Assembly (NCBI GenBank): GCA_902769255.1
Contig: CACXOM010000016.1
Coordinates: 1-39,178, forward strand
Length of the DNA stretch: 39,178 nucleotides
Direction: 5' to 3'
DNA from: Oscillospiraceae bacterium
GTDB lineage: Bacteria > Bacillota > Clostridia > Oscillospirales > Acutalibacteraceae
Under the pieces are notes generated by a model. It was not told the origin of the DNA. It ran no database searches and saw only the letters and a list, made by a program, of their open reading frames with translations. Both the position numbers and the translations under genes were made by a program. Positions 9,901-36,021 of this stretch are shown here, in pieces. Position 1 is the first letter of the stretch, and each line of letters begins with the position of its first letter.

Positions 9901-9913
9901 TAATAATGTGCTT

Positions 9914-9989
<76 letters not shown>

Positions 9990-9992
9990 AAG

Positions 9993-10147: not shown

Positions 10148-10176
10148 TTGAAATGCACAAATCAATGTGATATAAT
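10148..10176 (+). promoter_or_regulatory. Promoter of the large GH5 gene
   Basis: TTGAAA (10148-10153), 17-bp spacer, TATAAT (10171-10176), preceded by TGA. Strong vegetative type; no operator is obvious. Confidence 0.85.
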
Positions 10177-10216
10177 GCAATCGTGAGCATTTTTGTTTTT
10201 TTAGGAGGTGTAAAAA

Positions 10217-13200: not shown

Positions 13201-16177
13201 ATTAACAATTACCAAAAATTATTCAGACGGTCCTTCAACTTTGAAACTCAGCGTAGTTCCACAGTGCAAGGCAGGAGTTTATATTGATTACTTCTCATTC
13301 AAGAAAACACCTACTCCTATTACCGCTGAACCTTCTTCTAACTTTGCTATAAGCAGTTATCCTGAAATGCAAAATTACGAAGTAATGCGTGTTTTAAACA
13401 CTTTTGATGATTATATTTGCGGTACTGATACAAGATATTACATGCAAAACCAAATTGCTGGTTACAAGCGTGACGGTAATGCGTTTAATCTTAACTCAAG
13501 AGCTACAGCAAATAAATCTTACTTTGATAACAATGTAATTTGGTCTTCAAGGGCAAATCCGCTTGACGGCAACGGAATTAGATTCTGGTATAAAGCTACA
13601 AGCAGTGCAACATTGCAATTAGTAAGAACTAACGGCAGTATGTATACCGTTACACTTTCAGCTTCGACGGGTTGGAAAACAATTTACTACAAAGATGTTG
13701 TTTCAAACGGTGATTTAAGCGATGTTTATGAAATTCGTTTAAAAACAAATTCGGCTTCATCTTATTACATTGATGAGTTGCATACAATTCAGGAAAAAAT
13801 CGGCGATGTTACTTATGAGTTAAACGGTGACGGCACCGCTTCAGTTACAGGTTATTACTTACGTCTTACAGATGTAGTTATTAATTCAACTTATCAGGGT
13901 TGCCCTGTAGTTTCAATTGCTAACGGTGCTTTAGCAAACTCGTTGACATTAAAATCGGTTGTTATTCCAAGTTCGGTTACTTCTATTGGCGAGGGCGCAT
14001 TTAGCGGTTGTTTGAATCTTGAAACTGTTAATTTTGGTTCGGTTACTTCTATTGGTGCAAATGCATTTAATAACTGTAAAAAATTAACGAATGTTACTCT
14101 TCCAAATAGTGCAACTTCAGTTTCAAATACTGCATTTAGCGGTTGCACCGCACTTTATTTCAATGTTACAAACAACAGTTTTGCAAAAACTTATTGCACA
14201 ACTAACAGCATTGATTATAAATGCACAACCTCTTCGGGTATTAAATATTATTGCGATTTTAATACAAACGGAAATGCAATTAAAATTATCGGTTACACAG
14301 GTAATGCAAGTTCTTTAACAATACCTACAACTATTGATAGTATTACAGTTAAGTCAATCGAAAGCGGTGCTTTTGAAAACAACACTTCATTAGTATCAGT
14401 TACAGCTTCGAGCGATGTTACTGCTGTAAAAGATAACGCATTTAAAGGTTGTACTTCGTTAGAAACTGTTGATGTAAGCGGTGTAACCTCAATCGGCGAA
14501 AAGGCGTTTTACGGTTGCGCAAACTTAGAAGAAATTGATGTAGGTTACAGCTTGTTAACTATCGCAAAAGAAGCGTTTTACAATTGTACTTCGCTTGAAG
14601 AATTCTATTTCAGCGATACAATTACATCTATTGCAGACAGAGCATTCTTCAATTGTGATGTTAAAGCAGTTATGTCTGAAACAACTTATGCTGCTAAAAC
14701 CGGTTATGCTTACTCTTATGTAAATGACAACAGCATTGTATATTATCCGACAACTTCAAGCAACTTTAAATATTTTGTTATAAATTACATTGCTACTGTT
14801 TACAATTACACAGGTAATGCAACCGCTATAACAATACCTGCAACAATTGACGGTTACAGCGTTAGAAACATTGGCAAAGACGCATTTAAAAATAATACAA
14901 GTATTACTTCTGTAACATTGACAGAGGGTATTAGAACTATTAAAGAATACGCTTTTTACGGTTGTACTTCGCTTTCAAGCGTAACACTTGTTGATTCACT
15001 TCGTGAAATTGAGGGTTATGCTTTCGCAAACTGTTCGTCACTTTCTGCTATTACCATTAACAATGTTGTAGTTGTAAGCTCAACAGCATTCAACTCAAGT
15101 CCTACTCAAATAACATATTTGCAGACTAATTTCATTAGAAATGCGCTTGACTATGTTGACGGTATGACTGCAGGTTGGAACTTAGGTAATACTTTAGACG
15201 CTCACAGAAGACAGTATTCTTACGGCGATTTAACCGTTTCACAAAGCGAGCATTTATGGCGTTCATATGACTACATTTCGCAAGATTTGTTCAATATGGT
15301 TGCTCAAAAATTCAATACAATTCGTATTCCTATTACATGGAACGCATTTATTGACCCGAACAACAACTACACTATTGATACAGATTATATGAACAGAATT
15401 CAACAAGTTGTTGAAATGTGCTATAATGCAGGATTTGATTATATTATTATAAATACTCACCACGATTCAGATTACTATTTCAACGTTCATCCTAATAATG
15501 ACTTTAACCAAGCTCAAACAGTTATTGCAAGAGTTTGGCAGCAAATTTGCGCAAGATTTGCAAATTATGATGAAAAACTTATTTTTGAATCGATGAACGA
15601 GATTAGGTCTATTGATGTAAACAATCCTAACAGCAACGGTGACTGGTACGGTCAAACTGACGATTTGTTTACAAGACTTAATACATTGAATCAAATCTTC
15701 TATTCAACAGTAAGAAATTCGGGCGGTAACAATGCTGACAGATATCTTATGATTCAAACCTATGGCGGTCAAAACCAAGCAAGACAATTAAACAACTTCT
15801 GGTTCCCGTCTGCAGCGGTTGACGACCATATGATTGCTTCTGTTCACTGGTATATCGAAACAATAAATTCAGGCGATTACACCGCTACATTACAGCGTTT
15901 GAAATCTAAATTTATTGACCACGGTATTCCTTGCGTAATCGGCGAAATTGGTTTACCGGCTTATTTAGACGAATCGGGCAACATTACTGTTTATGATGAC
16001 GATTACAGAGAGCAATGGGGCACACTCGCATTCGGATTATTTAATCAGTATAATCTAAGAGCGATTATTTGGGACGACCAAGGTTTCTATTCAACGGTTG
16101 TAAAATCAGGTAATACTTACAGTTGGAAATTCCCGAAATATATTAACTCAATTTACCAAGCAACTAAAAAAGACTGA
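10217..16177 (+). CDS. Giant secreted GH5 glycanase with five repeat modules, CBM and BspA-type LRRs
   Basis: 1986 residues. Signal peptide about 1-30; IIGC at 13-16 could instead be a lipobox, so a lipoprotein is possible. Four repeat modules start at K39, K209, K396 and K564, each about 160 residues, with signatures ECGGSANRST, TQAWQEK, FMFWYKSD, TFKSDM and YVDEFYTF. Pro/Glu/Thr linkers separate them, and repeats 2 and 3 are almost identical. A beta-sandwich (about 727-890) and a CBM6/35-like module (893-1030, IVQAEDTNPKK to YIDYFSFKK) follow, then a fifth, degenerate repeat (about 1043-1195). BspA/TpLRR repeats fill about 1196-1640 (IGEGAFSGCLNLETVNF type). The C-terminus is a GH5 domain, GH5_4-like: GWNLGNTLDA (1653-1662), TIRIPITW, acid/base E1795 in FESMNE, nucleophile E1910 in GEIG. 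It should cut beta-glucans, xyloglucan or similar. No dockerin or sortase signal. AGGAGGTG precedes the start. Confidence 0.93.
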   Translation: MKRLFTLLLCLCIIGCNLSLTGVLKISALALTDEQIAAKNYPVPEGYAVDETLITFDTDAECGGSANRSTVTGTFFDTSSRIVTSTQAWQEKPVCASRVSLSGTGFMFWYKSDIATMFRLRNQSNDIIAVGNLTAAPNGKWITYYYTGQCVNFTFKSDMNPNISEYIETHESDTYMLNLMTSNSTGCTTYVDEFYTFDVAPEPEPEPGKNYPLPTGYEVGESNFTYDTDSECGGSANRSTDEGTYFDVSSRKATATQAWQEKSVFPSRIALTGEGFMFWYKSDSSVSFRFKNQNNSVIAAGNLSASSGQWITYYYTGQCVNFTFKSDMTANISSHIAENPNDTYMLSFINGSSSGFTAYIDEFYTFAEEQETTTESTTQTEPTEPEPTQPSQPSGKNYPLPTGYEVGESNFTYDTDAECGGSANRSTDEGTYFDVSSRKAVATQAWQEKSVLPSRIAFSGAGIMFWYKSDSAVSFRFKNQNNEVIAAGNLAASSGQWITYYYTGQCVNFTFKSDMTANISSHIENHPNDTYMLGFINGSSSGFTAYIDEFYTFAEPVPEPEPTKNYPLAEGYETGDTVVTFDTDEECGGSANRSTVEGTYFDTSSRKVTTTQAWQEKGVFASRVSLSGKGFMFWYKADVSSMFRLRNQNGNIIAVGNLPAAPDGSWITYYFNGECINFTFKSDMNANISDYIENHQSDTYMLNMMCSNSTGYTVYVDEFYTFVPGITPADSYSSNEEVFKFSLARFEEMTKTNAQYFDDGSVKLTSRYGSTASNSPINISYALDSTRLQNAINIANQGSGYLKITCDNINCVNSSNEEAYALVTVNFNGVNRAVKKHIYGSGTSDTYLIKVSDLTDVSSVDKLTVTITGTGLKNVEFKLSPITVYHFPQGETIVQAEDTNPKKLTSSGVADANINVDSDNCRTYVYGNASDSYLSFTLPNLEVGEYDVYACCYALQNTDVKFNVSVNNRREITNLLFSDETYVSKRHITNINIGQLTITKNYSDGPSTLKLSVVPQCKAGVYIDYFSFKKTPTPITAEPSSNFAISSYPEMQNYEVMRVLNTFDDYICGTDTRYYMQNQIAGYKRDGNAFNLNSRATANKSYFDNNVIWSSRANPLDGNGIRFWYKATSSATLQLVRTNGSMYTVTLSASTGWKTIYYKDVVSNGDLSDVYEIRLKTNSASSYYIDELHTIQEKIGDVTYELNGDGTASVTGYYLRLTDVVINSTYQGCPVVSIANGALANSLTLKSVVIPSSVTSIGEGAFSGCLNLETVNFGSVTSIGANAFNNCKKLTNVTLPNSATSVSNTAFSGCTALYFNVTNNSFAKTYCTTNSIDYKCTTSSGIKYYCDFNTNGNAIKIIGYTGNASSLTIPTTIDSITVKSIESGAFENNTSLVSVTASSDVTAVKDNAFKGCTSLETVDVSGVTSIGEKAFYGCANLEEIDVGYSLLTIAKEAFYNCTSLEEFYFSDTITSIADRAFFNCDVKAVMSETTYAAKTGYAYSYVNDNSIVYYPTTSSNFKYFVINYIATVYNYTGNATAITIPATIDGYSVRNIGKDAFKNNTSITSVTLTEGIRTIKEYAFYGCTSLSSVTLVDSLREIEGYAFANCSSLSAITINNVVVVSSTAFNSSPTQITYLQTNFIRNALDYVDGMTAGWNLGNTLDAHRRQYSYGDLTVSQSEHLWRSYDYISQDLFNMVAQKFNTIRIPITWNAFIDPNNNYTIDTDYMNRIQQVVEMCYNAGFDYIIINTHHDSDYYFNVHPNNDFNQAQTVIARVWQQICARFANYDEKLIFESMNEIRSIDVNNPNSNGDWYGQTDDLFTRLNTLNQIFYSTVRNSGGNNADRYLMIQTYGGQNQARQLNNFWFPSAAVDDHMIASVHWYIETINSGDYTATLQRLKSKFIDHGIPCVIGEIGLPAYLDESGNITVYDDDYREQWGTLAFGLFNQYNLRAIIWDDQGFYSTVVKSGNTYSWKFPKYINSIYQATKKD

Positions 16178-18785: not shown

Positions 18786-18816
18786 AAAAAAGCAAGTCAT
18801 TTGACTTGCTTTTTTG
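18786..18816. terminator. Shared terminator of tRNA-Ser and the B12-linked operon
   Basis: AAAAAAGCAAGTCA - TT - TGACTTGCTTTTTT, a 14-bp perfect stem with tails suited to both directions. The stop codon of the transglutaminase-like gene (18797-18799) lies inside the stem, so coding and terminator overlap. Confidence 0.85.
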
Positions 18817-20767
18817 TTTTTTTGTAAAATTCTTTTAAAAATAATTCGTCTTTCAATGAAATACTTTTATTTGAAAAACGCTTTTTAAAATAAATTTGTT
18901 GCGCTTTTTCAAAGTTTTCAATATTATTTGGTATTATGTAACCGTCTGTTTTAACGCCTTTTTTGTTTAAATTGGCAATTGTTTTTTCAAAATAATCGCT
19001 TTTCTTTTTCCTCTTTAATAAAAGAATCAAAATGATAATTAATAAAGATATAACAATATAATAAACATATGAAATGTTATGTGATTTACCGTTTTTGGTG
19101 TAATTTACAGCGGTTTTTGTTTTCTTGTTTATTACTTTATTTTTAACTATTTTTTCGTCATTAGTCTTTTGAGTTTTAATTGAAAAATCAGTCGGCAAAT
19201 TAATTTTTTCGCTAATTTTCGGCGTTGTTTCAAAAGGCAACCAGCCTATGCCGTCGTGATAATATTCTACCCATGCATGACAGTTTTTTTCACTTAACAC
19301 AATTTCGCTTTTTTTAATATCGTTTTTTGTGATTATATAACCTTCAACATATCTTGCAGGAATGCCTAAATATCTGAATACTAAAGCGCAAAGTGAGGCG
19401 TAATGAACGCTAAAACCTCTTTTTGAATTTGCAAAATTTGAAACACAGTCGGCAAATGAATTGCAATTAGTCGCACTTTCGTCATATTTAAAATCTTTAA
19501 AAATTTCAGAAATTTCCTTTTTAGCATTTTTATAAGAATAATGCATATTGCCTTTTGGGTTGTATTCGCCAATTAAATCTTTGATTAAATCTTTATGATT
19601 TTTATCAATTGACGTATAGTTTTTATAAACAAAATCTCTGTAATGTTTTTCTTCGTTTGTTAAATTTGGCTTTAATTTGCTAAAATCAATGTTGCTCGCA
19701 TAATAAGAATAGTCGCTACTGTCAAAAGCATTGTTTAAAGCGTTTTTATCGTTGATTTTACTGCTGTTTAAAGCGGTGTTGTCACAAAGAGAATAGGGAA
19801 TATATTTAAATTTTTTGCAAGCGCCAAAATTGCTTATTGTAATTCTATTTCTCGCATACTTTTTATTTGCTATTTGAGTTTGAGAATAAAAACCGTTTTT
19901 ATAAAGTGAATTAAACAAATCGGAATATTTGTAAAGCGTTTTGTTATCAAGACTTTGCCATTTGTTATCTTTGAAATTATCGCCTACAAAGCCTTTTAAA
20001 TACATAGTTTTAGGTGTTGACATTTTTATTTTAAGTGTAGTTTTGTTTGTAGGTTTATATGGCTTTAAATTGTTAAAATCACCGTTTGGCAAAGTGTTTT
20101 CGTAAAATATTACTTTGTTTGCCAAAGACGTTGATATAAAACTAAAATTTATTTGAGGTATATTTGCAATTATTGCTACAATTAAAACAGTAGCAATAAG
20201 TGTTTTTACAGCAAATTTTATATTGATTTCAGGTAAATTATCTTTTATTTTAAGAATTACAAGTGAAACAATCAACAAAACAATGCCTAAAGGTTTTATT
20301 GTGTTAAAAAACAAACCAAAAGCGCTTATTGATAAAAGCGAAAAATCATAAAACCAAATGCCTTTAAATCTAATTACAAAGTAAAAAATCAGCGTTAAAA
20401 TTAAAATAATTAAAATATTGATATAGATTAAATTTTCACTTTGCGTTTTAAAAAGTTTTACAATAGTTAAAGTTTTTTCACCGTATGAATTAATGATTGA
20501 ATTTGTTAAAAAAAGCAGTCCGCTTTTTAGTGATTTGTGAAAAATAATAAGAAAAACTGCGGTTAGGATTAGTGGCGCAAAATAAGCGATATTTCTTTTA
20601 ATTTTTGCTAAAGTAAAGGTAAAAAAAGAGGAAATTATAACAGCAAATGCAATTTTAGAATCAAAATTTGCAACGCTAAAAAACACCCCTAAAACACTTA
20701 ACAGGAGAGTAAAAAAATCTAAAAATAAACTATTCTTTTGTTGGTTTTCTTGGCTTGCTTTTAACAT
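18797..20767 (-). CDS. Transglutaminase-like membrane protein (TgpA type) with Ser at the Cys position
   Basis: 656 residues. Several N-terminal membrane segments (about 15-215), an extracytoplasmic middle, a transglutaminase core (about 385-516), one more membrane helix near 565-585 and a cytosolic tail: the TgpA/YebA layout. The core has KRGFSVHYASL (usually KRGYCxxFAS), GIPARYVEGY, NCHAWVEYYHDGIGWLPFET. Catalytic His is H497, and the acid position is E513 (Asp or Glu in relatives). The nucleophile position S453 is encoded by AGC, so the usual Cys is missing. It may be a binding-only or scaffold protein. Last gene of the cobalamin-riboswitch operon, 10 bases after DUF58; AAGGA precedes its start. 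Confidence 0.88.
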   Translation of the reverse strand: MLKASQENQQKNSLFLDFFTLLLSVLGVFFSVANFDSKIAFAVIISSFFTFTLAKIKRNIAYFAPLILTAVFLIIFHKSLKSGLLFLTNSIINSYGEKTLTIVKLFKTQSENLIYINILIILILTLIFYFVIRFKGIWFYDFSLLSISAFGLFFNTIKPLGIVLLIVSLVILKIKDNLPEINIKFAVKTLIATVLIVAIIANIPQINFSFISTSLANKVIFYENTLPNGDFNNLKPYKPTNKTTLKIKMSTPKTMYLKGFVGDNFKDNKWQSLDNKTLYKYSDLFNSLYKNGFYSQTQIANKKYARNRITISNFGACKKFKYIPYSLCDNTALNSSKINDKNALNNAFDSSDYSYYASNIDFSKLKPNLTNEEKHYRDFVYKNYTSIDKNHKDLIKDLIGEYNPKGNMHYSYKNAKKEISEIFKDFKYDESATNCNSFADCVSNFANSKRGFSVHYASLCALVFRYLGIPARYVEGYIITKNDIKKSEIVLSEKNCHAWVEYYHDGIGWLPFETTPKISEKINLPTDFSIKTQKTNDEKIVKNKVINKKTKTAVNYTKNGKSHNISYVYYIVISLLIIILILLLKRKKKSDYFEKTIANLNKKGVKTDGYIIPNNIENFEKAQQIYFKKRFSNKSISLKDELFLKEFYKKTKKQVK

Positions 20768-20777
20768 TTTAAGTTCC

Positions 20778-21698
20778 TTAAAAAACAGATTTTCCTACAA
20801 TAAACTCAATCTTTAAAAACTCTGCTACTACCGAATAAAAATCGTCTTCACATTCAATTTCAAAAGAAGTGATTTTGCCGTAAATAAATGCTACAATTTC
20901 TAATTTTGCGTTGGTTTTAATTAAGCTAAAACATTTTGAAAGAAAATCTTCAACTTTTTGGTTTGCGAGCGGTGCGCTTAAAGGTTTTTCTACAAAATTA
21001 TCAAAAACAATTTTTGTTTTTTTGTCTTCGTTTTCAGAGCCTTGTTTTACAATGAGTTCATCATATTTTGCTGATAATTTATGATGAATTTGATTTAAAT
21101 TATCGCCTTTTTGATATTCTCTTAAATGCGAAATATTATATAAATCTTTGCCGTTTTTTTGCGTTTCAAACTCGTTGTTTTGATTAAACTTTTCGCTTTC
21201 ACTTAAATAATCAGCTATATTAATTTCAGGCAAGACTGTTAAATAATCTTGCGTTTTGCATTCGAGCGTTCTAAAAACTATGCCGAATAAATCGTAAATT
21301 TTTATACTTTCAACTAAAATACTTACCGTTCCACAAAATGAACTTTCAAAGTTAAAAGTATTCTCTAACTTGCCATTAGGCATAACGCTGTTTGAAAATA
21401 TCAAAACGCTTTGCTCGTTTGTAACAGGATTTTTAATTGTAAGTTTTGTTTTAATATTCGGGTAAAATAAACGGTTGCCGTTTTTTAAAACTAATTTGCA
21501 ACTTGCTATTTGGTTTTTTTTAATTCTTTTAGGCATATCAAAACTAACCGTAAACTTTTTGTTTACAATTGAAATTAAAACTAAATGTGTAAAAGGGGAT
21601 AAAAGCGTTAGAATAAATAGAATCAAAAACGCTAAACCGCCTGTAAAAAGAGTTAAAATTAATTCGATTAATAATAAAAAACAATAAATAAATTTCAT
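20778..21698 (-). CDS. DUF58 domain membrane protein
   Basis: 306 residues. Two membrane helices at about 3-45, a beta-sandwich (about 50-170), then the DUF58 signature LYNISHLREYQKGDNLNQIH followed by HKLSAKYDELIVKQ (family form R-x-Y-x-x-G-D-x-x-R-x-I-x-W-x-x-S-A-R). The Trp of the signature is replaced by His. DUF58 proteins carry a von Willebrand-like fold and work with MoxR ATPases and TgpA-type proteins, as here. The gene follows MoxR by 4 bases without a good ribosome site, so translational coupling is likely. Confidence 0.87.
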   Translation of the reverse strand: MKFIYCFLLLIELILTLFTGGLAFLILFILTLLSPFTHLVLISIVNKKFTVSFDMPKRIKKNQIASCKLVLKNGNRLFYPNIKTKLTIKNPVTNEQSVLIFSNSVMPNGKLENTFNFESSFCGTVSILVESIKIYDLFGIVFRTLECKTQDYLTVLPEINIADYLSESEKFNQNNEFETQKNGKDLYNISHLREYQKGDNLNQIHHKLSAKYDELIVKQGSENEDKKTKIVFDNFVEKPLSAPLANQKVEDFLSKCFSLIKTNAKLEIVAFIYGKITSFEIECEDDFYSVVAEFLKIEFIVGKSVF

Positions 21699-21702
21699 AT
21701 TT

Positions 21703-22632
21703 TTAACTTATTTTCGGCATTTCGATTTCGCTTAAAATGCTGTTAATAACTTGTGTGTCGGAAACTGATGAAAACTTTGCGTTTGAATTTAAAATAATTC
21801 TGTGAGCACAGGTTATTTCAAATATTTCCGCAACATCGGTAGGAATTACAAAATCTCTTTCGTTTAAAAATGCGTGCGCTTTTGCCATTTTGCAAATGGC
21901 GATTGCGCCTCTTGGGCTTACGCCTAATTCAATATTTTCATTGTTTCTTGTCGCTTCAATAAGTTTTGTTATGTATTCGTAAACTTCATCGCTTATAAAA
22001 ATGTTTTCGATTTGTTTTTGTAGTGAAAGATATGTTTCATCATCAACAATTCTTTTTATATAATCGGTTTTGTTTTCGTATTTGTTTGTTTTTAAAATTT
22101 CAATTTGCTGTTTAAAATCAGGGTAGCCCATTTTAAGTCTTATCATAAATCGGTCAAGTTGCGAGTTTGGTAAAACCTGTGTACCTGCCGAGCCTGTCGG
22201 ATTTTGCGTTGCAATAACGGTGAAAGGCGAGGGGAGTTTGTAAGTGTTACCGTCAACGCTTATTTGTTTTTCTTCCATTGCTTCGAGTAGCGCAGACTGA
22301 GTTTTAGGCGAGGTGCGGTTGATTTCATCTGCAAGCAAAATATTTGTCATTATTGCGCCTTGTTGAAACTTTAATTTTTTATCATTTTTATCAAAATAAG
22401 AAAAACCTAAAATATCAGATGGCATTGTGTCGGGAGTAAACTGAACTCTCTTAAAATCTTGCCCAAAAATTTTTGAAATTGCGAGCGAAAGGGTGGTTTT
22501 GCCGACACCCGGCACATCTTCAAAAAGAATATGACCGCCTGCAAGCATCGCTTCAATACAATTTTTTATAACATTTTCTTTGCCGATTATAACTTTTTCA
22601 GCTTCGCCTATAATTTTATTGGTAATGTTCAT
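21703..22632 (-). CDS. MoxR-family AAA+ ATPase
   Basis: 309 residues, full family length. Walker A PGVGKTT (41-47), Walker B NILLADEINR with D102-E103, sensor 1 ATQNP (N144), arginine-finger/sensor 2 segment LGVSPRGAIA. MoxR ATPases remodel or activate partner proteins, usually with a DUF58 or vWA protein encoded next to them. The start has AAGGAGAG 6 bases upstream and overlaps the end of the preceding gene by 17 bases. Its presence in a cobalamin-controlled operon suggests it helps assemble or load the surface proteins encoded upstream (inference). Confidence 0.93.
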   Translation of the reverse strand: MNITNKIIGEAEKVIIGKENVIKNCIEAMLAGGHILFEDVPGVGKTTLSLAISKIFGQDFKRVQFTPDTMPSDILGFSYFDKNDKKLKFQQGAIMTNILLADEINRTSPKTQSALLEAMEEKQISVDGNTYKLPSPFTVIATQNPTGSAGTQVLPNSQLDRFMIRLKMGYPDFKQQIEILKTNKYENKTDYIKRIVDDETYLSLQKQIENIFISDEVYEYITKLIEATRNNENIELGVSPRGAIAICKMAKAHAFLNERDFVIPTDVAEIFEITCAHRIILNSNAKFSSVSDTQVINSILSEIEMPKIS

Positions 22633-23626
22633 TTTTAACTCTCCTTTTTATAAGAATTGCGCAAATTACCGCTGCAAAACAAGCAATTATCACAAGATAA
22701 AAATAATTTGTTTCATTTTTTATTATATTTTCGCGTCCGTTAGAAAAATCGTAAAACAAATTATAATTATTTTTAAAACGATAATGAGCAATTAAAGCGC
22801 AAAGCGCTTGTGTACTTGCCAAATTATCTGACTTTTTTTGGTCTATTATATGCTTAAATCCGCCGTTTTTATTTTTATACTTATTTAAGTTTGATATTAG
22901 TGTATTGTGGTTTTTAATAAATCTTTTATCTTGTTCGCAGTCAATTTTTAACTCGCAAAGGGCAATTATAACCTGCGAAACGCTTTCAGCCGAGCCGAAA
23001 CCGGCGTCTGCAGCTTGATTTTTTGAAAGATAATTTAGCGCTATTTCTTTTTGCTTTTTGGCTGATTTATAAGGCGCTAACGCCTGCAAGGCGAATGCGG
23101 TTGAATCAACCTCTGAAACACCGCCGTTAAGTGAAAAACCGCCGTCTTTGTTTTGATAAGAAAGCACTAAATCAATCAGTTTTGGTCGGCTGTATTTTGC
23201 CGATTTTGGTACTTTGTACCTTTTGCAGTCAAGCGCAATTAAGCCGTAAGATAAAGCGTTTATTCCTTGCTTTTCAATGTCTTCGTTATTATAAATTCCT
23301 TTTTCAAGCAAGTTATTTACATCTGACTTTTCATCAATTGCCGAAAGGCATAAAACAACTCTTTGATAATCTGTTGGGGTATTAAATTCGCTTTGTTTTA
23401 TTTTTTTTGCATATTCATTATAATTTTCATCTTTACCGACTCTTGCGCAACACAAATAATACCAATCTGCCATATTATTAGCTTCAGTTTTATTTGTGTT
23501 TTTATCAAGATATTCAAATAAGCTGTTGATATTGTCGCAAATTTCATTTTCCTTTGCGAAAACGGGGCAGGAAAGACAAGAAAAAATAAGAATAAAACAC
23601 AAAAACCTTAATAATACTTTTACCAT
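22616..23626 (-). CDS. Membrane-anchored alpha/alpha-repeat protein (prenyltransferase/intrinsic-factor-like)
   Basis: 336 residues. Signal peptide to about residue 24 (SCPVFA), a large outside domain, and a C-terminal membrane helix (YLVIIACFAAVICAILI) followed by RRVKNEHYQ. The outside domain has repeats of the prenyltransferase/squalene-cyclase type: VLSYQNKDGGFSLNGG with STAFALQAL, YLSKNQAADAGFGSAES, and LNKYKNKNGGFKH with STQALCALIAHY. The same alpha6/alpha6 fold makes the N-terminal domain of intrinsic factor and transcobalamin. Catalytic DxDD or zinc motifs of the enzymes are not seen, which fits a binding role. It overlaps the DUF4430 gene by 7 bases and MoxR by 17, so the products are probably made in fixed proportion. 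GGAGG is 15 bases from the start, a long spacing. Confidence 0.82.
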   Translation of the reverse strand: MVKVLLRFLCFILIFSCLSCPVFAKENEICDNINSLFEYLDKNTNKTEANNMADWYYLCCARVGKDENYNEYAKKIKQSEFNTPTDYQRVVLCLSAIDEKSDVNNLLEKGIYNNEDIEKQGINALSYGLIALDCKRYKVPKSAKYSRPKLIDLVLSYQNKDGGFSLNGGVSEVDSTAFALQALAPYKSAKKQKEIALNYLSKNQAADAGFGSAESVSQVIIALCELKIDCEQDKRFIKNHNTLISNLNKYKNKNGGFKHIIDQKKSDNLASTQALCALIAHYRFKNNYNLFYDFSNGRENIIKNETNYFYLVIIACFAAVICAILIKRRVKNEHYQ

Positions 23627-25284
23627 GTTATATCAAAATTACCTCCGCTTCCGTTTAATGAATATCCGCCTATGTCTTTGCCGTAAGCCAAGGTAAAGCG
23701 AATTTCTAAAGTGTCACCGTCTTTAAAAACAGCATCTGAAAGATTGTAATTTATAAAGTTTCCGTTTATTTTTATCATCCAGCCCGAAGCGTAAGTAAAA
23801 TCAAGCTCGCCCAAGCTGTCATGGGAGTGTTTTTGGTTAAGTGTGAGTCCGGCATTTTTAATTTCTTTTTTTAATTCTTCAGGAATAGAGGCGTTTTGAG
23901 CAATGCCTGATTTTGTAATTCTGTAAAGATAAAATCCGTCATTAATTGTGCCTTTGTTTGAATATTCAAATCCGTTTTGATTTAAAAAATTGGCTATTGT
24001 TTTTGCGCCGTTGTCGCCTTGAATAATATCAAAATCGGTTGTTTTAATAATATAGTCCAAACTTAAAACTTTAGCATCTATACTAATATTAATTTTGCCG
24101 ATTTTTTCGCCGTTTTGCGCTTTTTGGCAGTTTATTGTGTAAGAATAATCGGCAAAACGCCCGTCATTATCGGTAATTCTTATATCAAGCGTATTTTTTC
24201 CGTCAATAAATAAAAGTTTATAAACAGAATAATTCGAGTCCCATTTGTTACGAATAACGGTGTCGTTTAGTTTAACTTCAATTCCGTTTTTATAAATTCT
24301 TTTTCCGCTAAAATCTTTTGCTAAAATATTCAGCAAAAAGTCTGCACCTTTGATTGTTTGCTCATTTTTAATGTTTATATATTCAATTTTCGGCTCGGTT
24401 TCAGGGTTAGCGGTCGGAATAAAAATAATTGTGTAGGTTTGATTTATAGTAACAGTTTTGCCTTTTATTATATCGGTAGCTTTTAGCCTTATTGAATTGC
24501 TACCTATATTAAGCGCTACGCTGTAATTCTCTGATGTTGATGTAATTGTTTTGCCGTTTAAAACAACGCTTAATTCCCCTTTTTTGCTTGCGTTGTTAAG
24601 TTTTGCAAAAAAGCTAAATTTTTCATTATATACAGTTTTGTTTTCTAAATTCGTGTTAATAGAAAAATTTTTATTGTTATTTGTAGTTTTGACAGTTGAA
24701 GTTGATGCCTTTTGTTTTGAATAGGGGGGAGTGACAGAATTAGTTGTTTGTAATTTTAAAAATACTGTGTATTCCTCGAAAACCGATATAATTTTTCTGT
24801 TCTTTTCAATATATCTTACTAAAACTAATATCTTGTTTTCGCCGTTTTTAAGTAAAATTTTTCCAGTAAAGTTAGAAATTTCATCTTCATTTACATATAC
24901 AAAAACATTTTTTATTTCTAATTTTGTTAAATGAGTTATTCTAAATTTATATATTTTATTAAAAACCGTTTCTTTGTTTTTAATTGAGGTTTTAAAATAA
25001 GACTTTTTTTCTTTTTTTTCTAATAGATTTTTAGCTTCATTTGTTTGCTTAAATTCTTCGATTTGTTTTTTAAAAATGCTTTTTTTGGAATTAAGTTTTT
25101 TAAGAGCTGTTGTGGGAATTTTTATGTTGTTTTTTTGTTCTAAATGTTCGGCAACTGCTTGTTTTAGCGGGTTTTCTTCAGCTTTATACTGTTGGTTTGA
25201 ATAAAAGCAAAATGAGCCGATTGCTACTGCAATCAGCAAAAATAAAGGTATTAATTTTTGTGATATTCTTTGCAATCGACTCAT
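23620..25284 (-). CDS. Membrane-anchored multi-domain protein ending in DUF4430
   Basis: 554 residues. One N-terminal membrane helix (about 10-30), a charged coiled stretch (about 40-110), then at least three Ig-like beta domains (about 110-400, e.g. VVLNGKTITSTSENYSVALN, DGKNTLDIRITDNDGRFADY) with a Thr/Ser/Asn linker. At about 405-545 lies a DUF4430-like domain ending SGWMIKINGNFINYNLSD and DGDTLEIRFTLAYGKDIGG. DUF4430 matches the C-terminal cobalamin-covering domain of intrinsic factor and transcobalamin. With the alpha/alpha-repeat protein encoded immediately after, the two halves of an intrinsic-factor-like binder would be supplied as separate membrane proteins. Start ATG 25284 has a weak AGGAAAA upstream. 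Confidence 0.82.
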   Translation of the reverse strand: MSRLQRISQKLIPLFLLIAVAIGSFCFYSNQQYKAEENPLKQAVAEHLEQKNNIKIPTTALKKLNSKKSIFKKQIEEFKQTNEAKNLLEKKEKKSYFKTSIKNKETVFNKIYKFRITHLTKLEIKNVFVYVNEDEISNFTGKILLKNGENKILVLVRYIEKNRKIISVFEEYTVFLKLQTTNSVTPPYSKQKASTSTVKTTNNNKNFSINTNLENKTVYNEKFSFFAKLNNASKKGELSVVLNGKTITSTSENYSVALNIGSNSIRLKATDIIKGKTVTINQTYTIIFIPTANPETEPKIEYINIKNEQTIKGADFLLNILAKDFSGKRIYKNGIEVKLNDTVIRNKWDSNYSVYKLLFIDGKNTLDIRITDNDGRFADYSYTINCQKAQNGEKIGKINISIDAKVLSLDYIIKTTDFDIIQGDNGAKTIANFLNQNGFEYSNKGTINDGFYLYRITKSGIAQNASIPEELKKEIKNAGLTLNQKHSHDSLGELDFTYASGWMIKINGNFINYNLSDAVFKDGDTLEIRFTLAYGKDIGGYSLNGSGGNFDITW

Positions 25285-25300
25285 TTTTTGTGTTTTCCTG

Positions 25301-28111
25301 TTATTTAATTTTTACTTTTTTGGATTTTGCCCATTTGGAATAAACAGTTTTGTTACCTTTTTTAACAAATGCTCTTATTTTAACAATATATTTTTTACCG
25401 CTTTTCAGTTTTTTAATCTTTTTGGTTGTTGTCTTTTTAGCATTATATTTTTTGGTTTTCCATTTGCCTTTGCCTGTTTTGTATTTAAGTTGGAAACCTG
25501 TTGCACCTTTGACTTTTTTATAAGTAACTTTGAAAAGCTTTTTGCCTTTTTTAAGGGTAAATTTCGGTTTTTTAAGTTTTAATTTTGCTGTTTGTTTACC
25601 TTTTTTGATAACTTTATTACAAATAGAGCAAACTGTGTCGCCTGTGTAACCTTTTGCAAAATATGTTGCCGCAACTTTGTTAACAACTTTTGTTTTGTGC
25701 GAAACAGTTATATCTGTAAATGTTGAAACTGCGTCAATTTTAGCACCGATTTTGCCGGTTCTGTTGCCGTAAATGCCGTATTTATAAGTGATAGTAACAT
25801 CTTTATCTTTTATAGATAATTTATCAGTTGAAATTTGAACATCATCAGTAACGTCTTTTGAAGTTCCGTTTGCAAATTCAGCGGTAACTTTTAAACCTTT
25901 TTTGTTGAATTTTTCGTTTTCATAATAAGAATTCTTTTTAGGTTTAGCGGTTACTTTAATACTTTTAACCGCTGAAGCTACAGCCATAAGGAAATTAGAG
26001 TCGTTTTTGAAATAAATTGTTCCGTCTAAATCGCAAACAAGACTTCCTGTGCCGTAATTTGCCTGTTCGTCAACCGGTGTAAACAATTCACGTGCGCAAT
26101 TTTCTACTGTTTTTTCGCCGTATGTTTTTGTAACGCCGTCAACTGTACTTGTAACACCTTTTTTATCTTTAAGCAAATAAATGCTACCGCCGTTTTTGTT
26201 TTCGGTAAAGTAAACATAGTTGTAACCGTCTTGTTCATTATAAGCGGTTGAAATAAGTGCGCTTGACTGAACATAACCGTCTGTTCCTGCCACATAAGCG
26301 ACCTCAAAGCTTTCAAGGTCAATTACTGCAATATGATGACCGCTTCCTTCGGTATAAGCGTTTTCTCCGCAAACGCCGACATAGGCTCTGCCGTTTGCAA
26401 TTGCTGGGGTAGAAGTAGCCATACCGCCAAGTTTTAAAGATTTGCTGTCTGCTTCAATAATTTGACCTTTTGCGTTAATAGCAGCAGAATAGAAAGTTCC
26501 GTTTTTACTTACAAAATAATATTTGTCAGTATCTTTGTCATAAGAGATAGTTGAGCAGATGTCGCCGTCAAGCTCATCAGCTTCATTAATAACTTCACCT
26601 GTTGTAGCATCAAAAATGAGCAACCCGCTTGTTTGAGATGTGTATCCGTCTGCGCCGTCTGCAGTACCTACTACAACAAATTTATCGCAAGCATATGCGC
26701 CTGCCCAATAAAATCCGCCTTGTTGGGTATATGTCCAATCGGCTGATTTTTCTTCTAAAGAGTTTGTTTTATCTTCATCGGTAATATCGAGGCAAACAAA
26801 GTTTGCGTCATCGGTTTGGCTTTTCCAAAAACCTGTATATAAAAATCCATTTCTTACAGTAATAGGGCTGTTTGGTTGTCCGCCGAGTTCATCTTTATAA
26901 ATCCATAAAGATTCAAGCGTTGTAGCGTCAAACGCCTGAACTGTACCGTTGTTAAGCCCTACAAAAATCATTCCGCTTGAATATGTAGGTGGTTCAAGAG
27001 AATAAGAAGGGCTTTCAGCCATTTCAACTTCTTTTACAATTTCGCCGGTTTTTTTGTTGAGTTTTATAAGTCTTTTTGCCGAATAAGTAATCAAATAATC
27101 ATCAACTATTATCGGTTGACTTGGAGCGTCCCAACCGCTACCGATTTCCGAAGCCCAAACTAATGAGGTTTCATCAGCATTTGTAGGAAGTTTTGCAGTC
27201 GTTACAGCATTGTTTTTATCGTTTCCTCTAAAATCGCTCCATTCGCTGTTAAGGTCGGGGTCATTGAAATAGTTATTTCTTTTAACATTGATTGAAGTTA
27301 CAGCAGGAACTAAATAACTGCTATCAGTTAAATCGCCGTCAGTAGCAACAATTTTGTAGTCGCCCATATATTTGAATTTATATTCAAAACTGCCGGTTTT
27401 TGCAATATCGGTTAAGTCTTCAACAAAATTGTTGTTGCTGTCAAGCAGTTCAACTATCATATTTTCGCTCAAATCGCCTTGAGCTGAAAAATTAAATTTT
27501 GAAATATTGAAACTTTTTGTTTCGTTTTTAGACACTTGATAATTATCATTATCAAACTTTGTCCAATTTAAATCGTTCCATGCAGAATAATCGGTGAATA
27601 ACGAAAGGTCAACTACATCGCCGTTGTTAATTACAACTTGGTCTGCTGTAAGGGTATTCAAATCATGGTTTACAATGAACATAAAGTTGTCGGGGTTACC
27701 CCAAAGATTTGAAAAGTAAGGTCCGTAGACAGATGAGACTAAAGTGAAAGCATCGGTGTTGTTTTGCACCTTTTCACCGTCTAAATAATACTTTTCAACT
27801 GCTTTAATAAGCATATGAAGAAGTGTAGGCTTTTTCTCTAAAACAGATTGTTCGTTTTCATCTTTAATATAGCGGTTATAAGCTTGCAAACCGTATTCAG
27901 ATAAATCGAACCATTCAACTTTTATCGGAGTTGTAAGAAGTCTTGTTTCGTATTTGTCGTGTCCGCTTAAAATATTGCCGTCTTTGCTGACTGTAAAAAA
28001 AGCGGTTACGCTTTCTTTATCATCTTGTGCAAAAGCAATGCTTGGCGCACAACCTATTGCAATAACTATTGCAATTAAAAAAGATAAAACTTTTTTGTTT
28101 AAATTTGTCAT
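25301..28111 (-). CDS. Secreted beta-propeller protein with DUF4430-like domain, cobalamin-regulated
   Basis: 936 residues, first gene after the cobalamin riboswitch. Signal peptide ending SIAFA (about 28). Residues about 58-180 look DUF4430-like (KPTLLHMLIKAVEKYY, GNPDNFMFIVNHDL, INNGDVVDLSLFTDYSAW). About 318-725 is a PQQ-type beta-propeller with some seven blades (SQPIIVDDYLITYSAKRLIK, SGMIFVGLNNGTVQAFDATT, ATSTPAIANGRAYVGV, LVCDLDGTIYFKNDS). A bacterial Ig-like domain follows (about 733-800, YYENEKFNKKGLKVTAEFANG), then a CSIC pair and a very Lys-rich C-terminus (about 840-936) likely to bind the wall. Bacteroides BtuG, a surface B12 binder, is also a propeller, so a corrinoid-binding role is a reasonable inference. 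AAAGGAG precedes the start. Confidence 0.87.
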   Translation of the reverse strand: MTNLNKKVLSFLIAIVIAIGCAPSIAFAQDDKESVTAFFTVSKDGNILSGHDKYETRLLTTPIKVEWFDLSEYGLQAYNRYIKDENEQSVLEKKPTLLHMLIKAVEKYYLDGEKVQNNTDAFTLVSSVYGPYFSNLWGNPDNFMFIVNHDLNTLTADQVVINNGDVVDLSLFTDYSAWNDLNWTKFDNDNYQVSKNETKSFNISKFNFSAQGDLSENMIVELLDSNNNFVEDLTDIAKTGSFEYKFKYMGDYKIVATDGDLTDSSYLVPAVTSINVKRNNYFNDPDLNSEWSDFRGNDKNNAVTTAKLPTNADETSLVWASEIGSGWDAPSQPIIVDDYLITYSAKRLIKLNKKTGEIVKEVEMAESPSYSLEPPTYSSGMIFVGLNNGTVQAFDATTLESLWIYKDELGGQPNSPITVRNGFLYTGFWKSQTDDANFVCLDITDEDKTNSLEEKSADWTYTQQGGFYWAGAYACDKFVVVGTADGADGYTSQTSGLLIFDATTGEVINEADELDGDICSTISYDKDTDKYYFVSKNGTFYSAAINAKGQIIEADSKSLKLGGMATSTPAIANGRAYVGVCGENAYTEGSGHHIAVIDLESFEVAYVAGTDGYVQSSALISTAYNEQDGYNYVYFTENKNGGSIYLLKDKKGVTSTVDGVTKTYGEKTVENCARELFTPVDEQANYGTGSLVCDLDGTIYFKNDSNFLMAVASAVKSIKVTAKPKKNSYYENEKFNKKGLKVTAEFANGTSKDVTDDVQISTDKLSIKDKDVTITYKYGIYGNRTGKIGAKIDAVSTFTDITVSHKTKVVNKVAATYFAKGYTGDTVCSICNKVIKKGKQTAKLKLKKPKFTLKKGKKLFKVTYKKVKGATGFQLKYKTGKGKWKTKKYNAKKTTTKKIKKLKSGKKYIVKIRAFVKKGNKTVYSKWAKSKKVKIK

Positions 28112-28148
28112 TGTATTTTCTCCTTTGTTTTATTATTTAATCTACCAA

Positions 28149-28184
28149 TAAAAAAGTGCTTTTCCACAAATTATAGAAAAGCAC
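28149..28184 (-). terminator. Intrinsic terminator of the riboswitch expression platform
   Basis: On the minus strand GTGCTTTTC (28184-28176) pairs with GAAAAGCAC (28164-28156), followed by seven U. It sits between the aptamer and the propeller gene. An upstream stem (GAGTGCAATTT with AAATTGTACTC, and an overlapping TTTCTTAAAAA / TTTTTTAAGAAA pairing at about 28187-28250) could act as the alternative structure. Confidence 0.8.
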
Positions 28185-28277
28185 AAGTTTTATTAATTTC
28201 TTAAAAAAGAGTACAATTTTTAAGAAATCAATAACTTAAATTGCACTCTTCAAACGCCAAAGTGTGAAAAATAAAAA

Positions 28278-28433
28278 GAAAATACGCAGGTTTCTGACTT
28301 ATGATAACAAAACCAAACCCTAAAATTCGGGTAGGGAAAATTATTGTCAAATACAGTAATGGCGGTTGTTCCGGATTCGAACCGGATTTCCTAAAAATCT
28401 ACTCAGTTAACAACTTTTCAAACCGTATTTTCC
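28278..28433 (-). promoter_or_regulatory. Cobalamin (B12) riboswitch aptamer
   Basis: Read on the minus strand the conserved parts come in order: closing stem GGAAAATACG (28433-28424); GGAAATCCGG-TTCGAA-TCCGGAAC (28391-28368), the P4-type hairpin with T-loop; CCGCCATTACTGTA (28365-28352), the B12-box region; and AGTCAGAAACCTGCG (28299-28285), the 3' signature, followed by CGTATTTTC (28286-28278), which closes P1. The B12 box usually reads GCCACTG; here it has extra bases (GCCATTACTG). It precedes the propeller operon and should switch it off when cobalamin is plentiful. Confidence 0.9.
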
Positions 28434-28457
28434 TTATTGATATATTAAATTTATTTC

Positions 28458-28486
28458 ATTTTAACATACAATTTAATATAAGTCAA
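28458..28486 (-). promoter_or_regulatory. Promoter of the riboswitch and B12-linked operon
   Basis: Minus strand TTGACT (28486-28481), 17-bp spacer, TAAAAT (28463-28458) preceded by TGT. Transcription would begin just before the riboswitch aptamer. Confidence 0.82.
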
Positions 28487-31151: not shown

Positions 31152-34100
31152 CTATTTCGGAATATATGTTACTTCATCATTCTCATCAATATCAAAATAA
31201 TCCCTACCCTTTTCAAGTGAATACCTAATATCAGCATTATCTTCCTTAAACCTTTCAGATAACGGTATAACATTTCCGTTATCGTCATAAGTTACAGGGT
31301 CAGCAGATTTGATTTGATTAGGATAAAACACAACATAATCGGTAGTCAATTTTGATAAAGCGTTATAGTCAACACCATCGGAAATGTTTTTGAATATTAC
31401 TCCGTCATACCGTTTCTTTTTAGCATAATCAGCCCATTCGTATGTATCCATTTCTTTGCCGTCAAAAGAAATAGCACCGTAATTTTGACCGTTACAATCT
31501 ATAATAAGCGGATTATCAATTTTTAAATATACCGAATACAGAAAACTTCCGTAACCGCCTGCATTATCAATATCATCATTAAAAAAGTGACCGACTTGCT
31601 TACCATATTGTTTTTTGAATACTCTGATAGGAGTATAGGTTGTGTCATAACTTCTTGCTTTACTATTCCAAACTCTTGTCTCTTCTTGATTTGTTGTACC
31701 GTGATACAATTTAAGCGGTTTCTTTCCGTCCTCTGAATAAGCACCCCATTGCATAGCAACATCATCAACTAACTTTTGAGCAGTTTCGGTGTCGCCTTTT
31801 TCAACCGCTTGCATATATTCGGTGTCTCTCGCTTCAAATTGAGTATTGACATTTTCATTATTTTCGGATATACTATTAGTAGAGGCTGAACCTGCATTTC
31901 TACTGAAATTCACTTTTTGTGATTTTTCGGTACGCAGGAGAGCCTCTTTTTTTATATCAAAATTCGTAGTTTTAAAATTAATAATATCATACAATACCAT
32001 ATTATCAGCTTTTGTTGTGCCGACAATAACATTTGCCTTGTAATCATTATTACCTACTCTTAATAACACTTCGCCACGAGCAAATTCTTTAAAGTTATCT
32101 TTTCTCTCGTGTTTTAAGTCCTCATTAATGTAATTTGTAGTCGCTAAAACAATTTCATCAAGATTATTTGCCGATTTATATTTGTCAGCATAAATTGTAC
32201 CGTCAGTCGTTTTTAAATAATGAGTATATTTTGAATTTGCAAACTCATTTTTAGTGACCTTATTAACCTTAATAAGTCTGTTACCTATCGGAATACCGTT
32301 TGAGAATTTTTCCGAAATTACCTTTTTAACAGTTTTAACCCAATCTTTTTTAGCAACACCGTCAAGAATATTCTCATCAATAACAACTACCGCTTTGTTG
32401 TCGGTGGTTTTTTCAAGCGAATATTTCCTATTGACATTTTCATTATTTTCGGATATACTATTAGTATAAGACAGTTTGCCACGGGGCTTCGACCCCTCAA
32501 CGGAAACAATTTTGGTTTCTGACGGTAAACTGTCTTTTTTTATTTGACCAACATTGTAAACAGTTGCTGTTTTTCCGTCGTTTCCTATTGATAATGTAAT
32601 TTTATGAAATGAACCGTCATAATCTTCAAAATATGCTGTTCTGTATGTAAATCCGTCTTTTGCAAAACTATGCTGTTTTGTATCCGAAGCACTGTTGAAT
32701 TTTTTTGAAGTTTTTGCAAGTTCATCAATATGTGTTTCTGCGTGTAACTTTACTAAAAATTCATCATCTGACATTTTAATTCTTTTGCCATTGACTGTTT
32801 TATAATTATCCCTTGCTTTATTAGCAGTTTCTTTTTTAGTTAAAGTTAAAATATCGCCCTCTTCGGTTTCAATATCAAGTTTTCCGTTTTCATCAAGTAA
32901 ACTATTGAAAAACTTTGTTATATCCGCCCTGCGTTCCGAAAGTGTTTTTCCTGTTATTACATTTCTGTTTTCACTTGCTCTAACATAAGTTTTTCCGTTT
33001 TCAAGTGTAACAATATCATATTTTTTAACACCGTTATCGGTGTTTTTATTTTGCACATTTTCTTTTGCTGCACCATATAAACTTTCAAATCTCTTTTCAA
33101 GTTTGTTAATACCGCTAATAGCACCTTTAAACTTTTTGAAAATGTTTTTCATAAATGAAACAAATCTTTGTCTTTTAGTGCCTTTTAATTCAGTTGCAAG
33201 ACGGCCAATACCGCCGAAGTCATCTTTAAATAAATTATCTGCAACAAAAGTAGCAGTTATTTCGCAATCAATTATACTTTTGTCTTTTGTTTCGTAAAGT
33301 TCGGCCATAGCCTCTCGGTATTCGTCCAAAGAATTATAACTGCCTTCAATTTGCTCCGCTTTAATTGATGAATAAGTCTTAACCCATTTTTTAAATACTT
33401 TGCTTTCAAAAACAGTCTGCTGAAATTCTTTATACTCTTTACTTGTCTTGCCTTTTTGCAAACTCTCAAAATGGTGTGTTAATTCGTGCGAGAGTGTGCG
33501 AAGCATAGCACCGTTAAGACCGCTTTCGCTTATGTTGTTAATACCTGCGTCAACATCAATACTTATTGTATTTGTATCAGCGTTATAACTTCCGTTCTCA
33601 CCGATTTTATTACCCTGCTCATCAACACCGGAAACAAACAACTTAACATTAACATTTAAAACTTTTGAAATAACTTCGGCAACCAAAACCGCATTTTTTT
33701 GTTTTTTAGTCAATGTCATACCTTGAATAGCAGAATCGTCAAAATAAGCCTCGCTTGTGCTTTTTTTGGCGTTTTCTTTTTGTTTTGCTTCTTCGCTTGC
33801 ATTAAGTTGTGCCAATTTATAAGCCACTTTTTTTGCGCTCTCATTTAAAACAATGCCTTTGTTAGAAAGAATAGCTTGTAAACTAATACCGCTTTTGGCT
33901 TTTGTATATACCTCGTTAAAATTCAAAGCGTAACTCTCAACCGATTGAGAACTACCATTAAAAGCGCCAATAAATGCGTTAGCGGTAGCGGCGGTGCCGT
34001 CAATTTGCACGCCGTAATTAATTAAATCAGATAAAGAATTATTGCCAAAATCAGCGTTATAAACATCAATTACATCACCGTTATTAAGTTTAATATCAAC

Positions 34101-35847: not shown

Positions 35848-35923
35848 TGGCAGGGGCAGAAGGACTTGAACCCTCGGCACGTGGTTTTGGAGACCACTGC
35901 TCTACCAACTGAGCTATACCCCT
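35848..35923 (-). tRNA. tRNA-Trp (CCA)
   Basis: 76 bases with encoded CCA. Anticodon loop CTCCAAA gives CCA. Acceptor AGGGGTA pairs with TGCCCCT, discriminator G. Confidence 0.95.
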
Positions 35924-35944
35924 ATATTTAGTTTGAAATGCGGT

Positions 35945-36021
35945 TGGTGGAGCATCAGGGACTCGAACCCCGGACCGTCCGGTTATGAGCCGGGAGCTCT
36001 AACCAACTGAGCTAATGCTCC
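35945..36021 (-). tRNA. tRNA-Met (CAT), elongator-type
   Basis: 77 bases with encoded CCA, anticodon CAT, acceptor GGAGCAT / ATGCTCC with a paired 1-72 (G-C), so not an initiator. A tRNA-Ile with a lysidine-modified CAT anticodon cannot be excluded by eye. It is transcribed ahead of tRNA-Trp from the same promoter. Confidence 0.85.

Follow-up and report, generated by a model that had tools for sequence, protein, structure and literature searches.

Introduction

Vitamin B12 (cobalamin) is carried in animals by intrinsic factor, transcobalamin and haptocorrin, in which an α/α-toroid is joined to a β-grasp domain of family DUF4430. In transcobalamin the vitamin is sandwiched between the two domains (PMC1796856), and DUF4430 is placed at the C-terminus of the TCN proteins (PMC4350170). 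The paper of Burroughs et al. (2007) that named the SLBB superfamily describes toroid-SLBB fusions, architectures with immunoglobulin-like (Ig) and propeller domains, operons with CbiO- and CbiQ-like genes and a usual lack of B12 synthesis; it inferred B12 scavenging by Gram-positive bacteria and proposed a transfer of B12 carriers from such bacteria to animals (PMC1796856). DUF4430 appears to be the Pfam form of the C-terminal SLBB clade of transcobalamin. Among bacterial systems, the energy-coupling factor (ECF) transporter ECF-CbrT of Lactobacillus delbrueckii is represented by the crystal structure 6FNP and has been shown to transport cobalamin and cobinamide; according to the same source, CbrT had been predicted by a 2009 survey of ECF systems (PMC5997447). 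In Bacteroides, B12 is captured at the surface by BtuG, a seven-bladed β-propeller lipoprotein encoded beside BtuB (PMC6143338). For numerous bacteria of the human gut, the identity of the systems that import B12 or its precursors was described as an open problem in 2019 (PMC6593275).

Here we analyse a stretch of 39,178 nucleotides (the window) from an Oscillospiraceae bacterium, positions 1 to 39,178 of contig CACXOM010000016.1 in assembly GCA_902769255.1, whose minus strand carries a cobalamin riboswitch followed by a six-gene operon (Table 1). The source genome has 1.79 Mb in 35 contigs, of which the window is contig C16, and is 99.7% complete. An initial annotation had read the operon as a surface B12-capture system of intrinsic-factor-like type. 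Its central idea is not new, because transcobalamin-like Gram-positive B12 scavengers were predicted in 2007 (PMC1796856). That the operon serves to capture B12 at the surface is nevertheless a well-supported reading and can be extended in scope: linkage, homology and the ECF genes described below support a B12-controlled, surface-exposed, split system resembling intrinsic factor and transcobalamin. Most likely the system does take up B12, and what is new about it lies in its details and not in its kind.

The window system shares with the SLBB proteins of Burroughs et al. the combination of SLBB with α/α-toroid, Ig or propeller domains and the presence of ABC ATPase and CbiQ-like neighbours (PMC1796856). 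It differs from the fusions described there in that toroid and DUF4430 form two chains and the ECF genes lie on another contig, and the main text of the 2007 paper mentions no riboswitch, MoxR, DUF58, transglutaminase or S component. Like the animal carriers it pairs a toroid with a DUF4430 β-grasp domain, but in two membrane-anchored proteins and not in one soluble chain, and systems of this type are linked to an ECF importer whereas the animal carriers are linked to endocytosis; nor is the window toroid specifically closest to transcobalamin. The S component is homologous to a chain of 6FNP. CbrT of L. delbrueckii depends on a shared, common ECF module (PMC5997447), whereas here the T component and the fused ATPases (EcfAA') are encoded beside the S component and extracellular DUF4430 and toroid proteins accompany them. 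The proposed surface capture with a β-propeller recalls BtuG (PMC6143338), although the propeller of the window is of the PQQ type; in support of a BtuG-like role nothing beyond both being propellers turned up, no dedicated sequence or structure comparison having been made. MoxR, DUF58 and transglutaminase-like genes adjoin a surface-protein gene in the same order in the PFNA cluster of Bifidobacterium, which unlike the window trio has a kinase and for which its description gives no B12 link (PMC8430577). As far as the literature searched goes, in which most subscription journals were not included, three elements are new, namely the link to a riboswitch, an S component of the CbrT type and the MoxR-DUF58-pseudo-transglutaminase variant, and no paper joining them was found.

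Results

Operon and leader

ORF calls and domain scans bear out the coordinates and gene list first given for a tight six-gene operon: six minus-strand open reading frames (ORFs) run from 28111 down to 18797, separated by 16, -7, -17, 4 and 10 bases. Also as first annotated, a cobalamin aptamer and a terminator stand ahead of them. The RF00174 call at 28442-28269(-) exceeds the gathering score, although at 38.5 bits the aptamer is a weak member of its family; it is the sole RF00174 match in the genome. A near-identical element (41.4 bits), which aligns with the window aptamer, occupies the same position in the same-genus genome G169. The leader 28275-28140 is much more stable than shuffled sequences (z = -5.9), and its minimum-energy fold includes the terminator. 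Given the aptamer and the terminator, the riboswitch would allow transcription to read through into the operon when corrinoid is low. Sigma-70-like matches, such as the promoter in Table 1, are about as frequent in this region as expected by chance (44 observed against a shuffle mean of 40.3).

Table 1. Features of the operon region, from promoter to operon end (positions in the window)
Feature	Position	Strand	Evidence
Sigma-70-like promoter, TTGACT-17-TAAAAT, TG before second hexamer	28458..28486	-	Consensus scan only, 10/12
Cobalamin riboswitch aptamer (RF00174)	28269..28442	-	cmscan 38.5 bits against gathering score of 31.5; E 2.4e-8 in the stretch
Intrinsic terminator, presumed expression platform	28156..28184	-	13-pair stem and T-run; between aptamer and first gene
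Secreted 936-aa protein: marginal DUF4430-like stretch, PQQ-type β-propeller, C-terminal Big_3- and fn3-like domains (both below cut-off)	25301..28111	-	
Membrane-anchored (N-terminal) 554-aa protein: Ig-like domains, C-terminal DUF4430/SLBB domain	23620..25284	-	
α/α-toroid protein, 336 aa, N-terminal signal and C-terminal membrane anchor	22616..23626	-	PF00432; hydrophobic stretches
MoxR AAA+ ATPase, Walker motifs intact	21703..22632	-	AAA_3 E 1.5e-56
Short DUF58 protein, 306 aa, two N-terminal hydrophobic stretches	20778..21698	-	PF01882 partial, 20.1 bits, E 4.1e-4, below cut-off
Polytopic membrane protein, transglutaminase-like domain, catalytic Cys replaced by Ser (GFSVHYA)	18797..20767	-	PF01841 (Transglut_core) E 2.4e-18
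Terminator-like inverted repeat, operon end	18786..18815	none	13 pairs; T-run on +, A-run at start and hence T-run on - too

Linkage to riboswitches and ECF genes in the family

The DUF4430 protein of the window was matched in 39 of 200 genomes of the family, its own included. To label genes in the regions around the matches, profiles were used whose seeds came from the window plus one or two relatives. A recurrent order emerged, consisting of riboswitch, surface toroid and DUF4430 proteins (separate or fused, with or without a propeller), small DUF4430 protein, EcfT, EcfAA' and EcfS. Pfam scans of chosen loci concur, giving PF14478 at 66 bits, CbiQ, two ABC_tran stretches and ECF S families. 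In G151 (locus L036), an 89-bit riboswitch heads a single operon that begins with counterparts of all six window genes, in unchanged order, and continues directly with small DUF4430, EcfT, EcfAA' and EcfS (290 bits).

Riboswitches were counted in 39 selected genomes of the family, namely 38 with a DUF4430 match and the same-genus G050. Twenty-eight of these held 37 RF00174 matches, 33 over the cut-off, and for 35 of the 37 a gene of the system was among the next three ORFs on the same strand (the exceptions are G028:C41:65711 and G172:C53:316), with labels from profiles seeded in the same set and gaps of up to about 1.5 kb. Without that selection, separate searches of all 200 genomes found an RF00174 match in 126, under stricter filters by which some weak matches were lost, and a PF14478 match in 150. 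For at least 64 of 149 riboswitches, a listed DUF4430 followed downstream in the same orientation at a distance of no more than 8 kb, where about 0.23 would be expected, and none of the 149 had one within 8 kb upstream among the matches listed; 64 is a lower bound because the DUF4430 list is incomplete. Riboswitches near DUF4430 genes reach 125 bits.

A small form was also seen behind riboswitches, in which one small protein is accompanied by an EcfS-like protein (L085 8140-9047, L092 9579-10629 and L093 9667-10625). The small protein is of the DUF4430 type in L085 and unlabelled in L092 and L093; no T or A gene adjoins, and L093 ends there. This form may rely on a shared ECF module.

The ECF transporter and the need for B12

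The initial annotation had foreseen that an importer would have to lie elsewhere, and a CbrT-type ECF module was indeed found on contig C5 of the same genome (G000:C5:21275-24862), with genes for a small DUF4430 protein, EcfT, EcfAA' and EcfS. A genome search with the EcfT of G151 located EcfT at C5:21802-22665 (E 1.1e-59); it scores 202 bits by homology to L036 and 29 bits with CbiQ, over the cut-off, in the genome search, while hmmscan of the ORF listed no family. The small DUF4430 protein has 174 residues, a start that looks like a lipobox by eye and a PF14478 score of 58 bits. EcfAA' carries two ABC_tran stretches and the S component matches PF07155 at 40 bits, both families being over the cut-off. 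The best match of EcfS in the Protein Data Bank (PDB) is 6fnp_A, both for the C5 protein alone (phmmer, E 2.7e-8) and for a profile of 27 members (E 2.4e-19, the next being 4hzu_S at 0.0025); from its size (182 aa) and this match, chain A of 6FNP is taken to be CbrT itself. With a CbrT-homologous S component, EcfT and two ATPase domains, the module is predicted to be a transporter of the ECF-CbrT type.

The genome encodes MetH with B12-binding domains, adjoined by its activation domain and a gene that is MetF-like by eye. CbiC, a single marker and not the whole pathway, was not found in the genome, and neither was a FecCD permease over the cut-off. The genome is thus probably without B12 synthesis and without a BtuC-type importer, and the bacterium probably cannot make B12. 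The best FecCD match (18.8 bits, below the cut-off) was considered as a BtuFCD candidate and rejected, its neighbours being read by eye as a metal-type ABC system.

Linkage across Bacillota

A scan of Bacillota with the toroid alignment gave at least 522 relatives, of which the best 80 loci were kept, many of them ending at contig ends. They include Paenibacillus, Sporosarcina, Lysinibacillus, Kurthia, Siminovitchia, Clostridium, Desulfosporosinus, Papillibacter and many uncultured genomes. Toroid and DUF4430 are fused in 31 of the 80 loci and fused or within two genes of each other in 72. EcfT or EcfS is present in 60 and both in 43; counting any of EcfT, EcfAA' and EcfS raises the figure to 62, but 60 is the safer count because the ATPase profile can catch other ABC ATPases. 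Clostridium cadaveris (L099) has the G151-type set with one extra DUF4430 gene at the front. A scan of viral contigs found no relative.

Thirty of the 80 loci, picked mainly for bearing a species or genus name, were searched for riboswitches, which were placed by their coordinates and by a heptamer resembling the B12 box with at most one mismatch. A riboswitch on the operon strand lies inside 24 of the 30. Among the remaining six, L150 contains one that lacks the heptamer and is downstream of the toroid. By coordinates, with no motif check, one lies just outside L143 and L158; inside L158 and L164 there are opposite-strand riboswitches only, and L098 and L111 have none. In other bacteria the surface genes are usually beside a B12-type importer, and they therefore probably serve B12 capture in many Gram-positives.

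Tandem cobalamin riboswitches occur before or between DUF4430 and toroid genes in L118 (1291-3544), L119 (982-1547), L124 (1591-2305) and L140 (1592-5119).

The surface proteins

The first protein of the operon had been annotated as a propeller with a DUF4430-like domain. The PQQ_2-type propeller is over the Pfam cut-off (E 5.6e-8) and has relatives in G169, G157 and G151, but the DUF4430-like stretch (residues 91-175) reaches only 10 bits here. It is clear in related propeller proteins of two other genomes, L091 and L063, at about 102 bits each (PF14478 E 4e-14 in L091). The L091 protein (8972-10873), itself behind a riboswitch, combines DUF4430, propeller and type I dockerin in a single chain, which suggests cellulosome-like attachment of a B12 binder.

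The AlphaFold2 model of the 554-aa DUF4430 protein consists of Ig-like domains and a well-predicted C-terminal domain; the block mean pLDDT is at least 84 over residues 211-540 and 78.8 over the whole chain, with a pTM of 0.54. In a related protein of G151, PF14478 scores 26.4 bits. When a profile of 59 surface DUF4430 domains, with that of the window first, was run against the 177635 sequences of the PDB, the best match was transcobalamin-2 (5no0, E 6.9e-4), which a smaller profile of 19 rows found at E 0.015. Transcobalamin was not among the matches of a profile built from the small DUF4430 proteins. As judged from their sequences, these surface domains are related to the β domain of transcobalamin.

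The toroid matches the Prenyltrans family PF00432 over the cut-off (E 1.1e-6), and its AlphaFold2 model, from an alignment of 55 rows, has a pLDDT of 93.4 and a pTM of 0.88. Foldseek matches comprise terpene cyclases, protein prenyltransferases and transcobalamin, with similar TM-scores for prenyltransferases and transcobalamin. The model thus establishes the fold class and no special tie to transcobalamin, since other toroids match equally or better, and as the toroid is no closer to transcobalamin or intrinsic factor than to other α/α-toroids we do not file it as a member of that family. The structural match to these carriers that had been anticipated therefore stands for the toroid as a fold, while the link of DUF4430 comes through the sequence profile. 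The pairing itself is that of intrinsic factor and transcobalamin: transcobalamin is among the matches of the toroid model, and the toroid is fused to or near DUF4430 in the 72 loci counted above.

The MoxR-DUF58-transglutaminase trio

The last three genes of the operon encode a MoxR ATPase, a DUF58 protein and a transglutaminase-like membrane protein. The Walker A and B motifs of MoxR are present, and Walker-type motifs occur in all 16 aligned rows, one of which is a duplicate contig; the DUF58 region of the window protein aligns with its relatives. In the transglutaminase alignments we take the G-x-C motif to be the site of the catalytic cysteine. Nineteen rows were aligned for the operon set, from which L107, a repeat of L035, and L089, a stand-alone gene, were removed. 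None of the remaining 17 operon proteins has the cysteine, which is replaced by S, A, D or E. A search for paralogues gave 45 places and 30 loci, of which 29 were aligned (L205 has no covering ORF), comprising nine proteins of B12 operons and 20 paralogues, the latter drawn from ten of these genomes; 18 of the 20 have Cys at the motif. The 17 operon proteins form one clade (support 82/94), present in 83% of bootstrap trees, in a tree without the paralogue rows L196, L200, L202, L203, L204 and L206, among which is one of the two Cys-less paralogues.

A second MoxR-DUF58-transglutaminase set in the genome of the window, on contig C13 (L208 2815-5280), likewise has Ser in place of Cys. The idea that loss of the cysteine is unique to B12 operons was dropped, as two of the 20 paralogues lack it, one of them in this other set. 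An active cross-linking transglutaminase was also discarded as an interpretation, the catalytic residue being replaced; without it, the protein is unlikely to be a cross-linking enzyme.

The whole trio is found in 13 of the 80 Bacillota loci, nine of which also have ECF genes. Its genes share the strand of the operon, being inserted between toroid and small DUF4430 in Clostridia such as L099, L129 and L154 and following the ECF genes in Bacillales (L101, L120, L143, L164). A long match to the DUF4430 protein of the window accompanies it in 12 of these 13 loci, against 7 of the 67 others, with a profile seeded from the window. MoxR ATPases are described as having chaperone roles towards particular complexes, in some cases together with VWA partners (PMC9976466, PMC3893208). 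The trio may assemble the split receptor, as the initial annotation had proposed for the MoxR group, or remodel it.

Discussion

Proposed mechanism

We propose that the membrane-anchored α/α-toroid and the membrane-anchored DUF4430 (SLBB) protein would form a surface receptor and jointly sandwich the corrinoid, in parallel to the two domains that transcobalamin holds within one chain, while the secreted propeller protein may aid capture or tethering. The ligand would be passed to the small DUF4430 protein and its CbrT-type transporter (EcfS-EcfT-EcfAA'), partners that are encoded on contig C5 here and in the same operon in relatives, and imported B12 could then be used by MetH. MoxR, DUF58 and the Cys-less transglutaminase-like protein would be a dedicated add-on to the receptor. 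We regard this proposal as a whole, from riboswitch-controlled split receptor to CbrT-type importer with MoxR add-on, as likely, the ligand, the sandwich binding, the handover and the part of MoxR being its inferred steps, whereas the riboswitch call, gene order, linkage, homologies, toroid fold class and cysteine loss on which it builds are observed. A more specific version, which we think unlikely, would make the trio a dedicated ATP-driven module acting across the membrane on the split receptor, in which MoxR, through DUF58 and the pseudo-transglutaminase, pairs the two halves or separates them and so releases B12 to the ECF transporter. If true, the trio would accomplish in Gram-positives the release for which Gram-negatives rely on TonB.

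The system offers a concrete, riboswitch-marked candidate for uptake, with gene sets in named species, and connects a proven type of B12 transporter with the transcobalamin-like proteins that had been predicted for Gram-positives. It also brings in a variant that has an ATPase module together with a pseudo-transglutaminase, and opens an experimental route to the 2007 proposal that the B12 carriers of animals were acquired from such bacteria.

Evidence against the proposal and alternative readings

Several results weigh against the proposal. The DUF4430 match of the window protein itself is below the Pfam cut-off (PF14478, 17.2 against 23.8 bits, E 0.0074), and transcobalamin is absent among the 50 Foldseek matches listed for the whole protein, most of which are Ig-like multidomain proteins. 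For the toroid, terpene cyclases and prenyltransferases rank above or level with transcobalamin in Foldseek (best transcobalamin rank 22, E 4.5e-3, TMq 0.51), and its sequence profiles match terpene cyclases and α-2-macroglobulin in the PDB, transcobalamin not being among the matches. No RF00174 match lies at the ECF module of this genome, and 85 of the 149 family riboswitches lack a nearby DUF4430 among the matches listed (150 places). In an alternative reading, the riboswitch does no more than report B12 status and the receptor has another ligand, for example a corrinoid precursor (cobinamide or a different one), a cobalt complex or a glycan. DUF4430/SLBB domains are divergent, a reviewer of the 2007 paper cautioned against B12 as the sole ligand (PMC1796856), EcfT is a member of the CbiQ family, whose name refers to cobalt transport, and ECF-CbrT also carries cobinamide (PMC5997447). 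We nevertheless find another ligand quite improbable: in the PDB the S component matches ECF-CbrT best, the profile of DUF4430 domains leads to transcobalamin, and cobalt uptake for B12 synthesis would make little sense in a genome in which CbiC was not found. Adhesins commonly contain Ig-, Big_3-, fn3-like and propeller domains, and the operon has domains of these kinds behind a weak aptamer, as would an ordinary adhesin or wall-protein operon that came by a degenerate riboswitch by chance. The strength of the riboswitches to which DUF4430 genes are linked across the family, and the same kind of gene set with riboswitches in 24 of the 30 named Bacillota loci examined, leave this explanation hardly any credit.

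For the trio there is a different account, in which its genes are passengers from a general envelope chaperone set unrelated to B12 and the first three genes alone make up the B12 system. Only 13 of the 80 loci have the trio, the same-genus G050 has DUF4430 and toroid without it behind a riboswitch match of 31.0 bits (just under the cut-off), the second trio on C13 has a transglutaminase likewise with Ser, and in Bifidobacterium the gene of a surface FN3 protein is followed by three similar genes (PMC8430577). Its orientation with the operon and its placement, either behind the toroid and ahead of the small DUF4430 gene or following the ECF genes, speak for a dedicated role instead, as do the single clade of operon transglutaminases, none with Cys, and the association with the long DUF4430 match, window-seeded as that profile is. 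Passenger genes have a modest but real chance of being the right account, and a trio dedicated to the receptor is preferred.

Other genes of the window

At 10217-16177 the window encodes a protein of 1986 residues that combines BspA-type leucine-rich repeats with a GH5 cellulase domain. A minus-strand cluster at 2085-9228 contains an ETF-like protein, an FGGY kinase, an iron-sulphur protein, an FAD-linked oxidase and an L-fucose-isomerase-like protein (the last below the cut-off) and looks like a sugar or sugar-acid pathway. In addition, a polyvalent protein of 1529 residues (31152-35741; PBECR5 nuclease-like, ART-PolyVal, LPD3) adjoins two tRNA genes at 35851-36021 and is perhaps part or a remnant of a phage or conjugative element.

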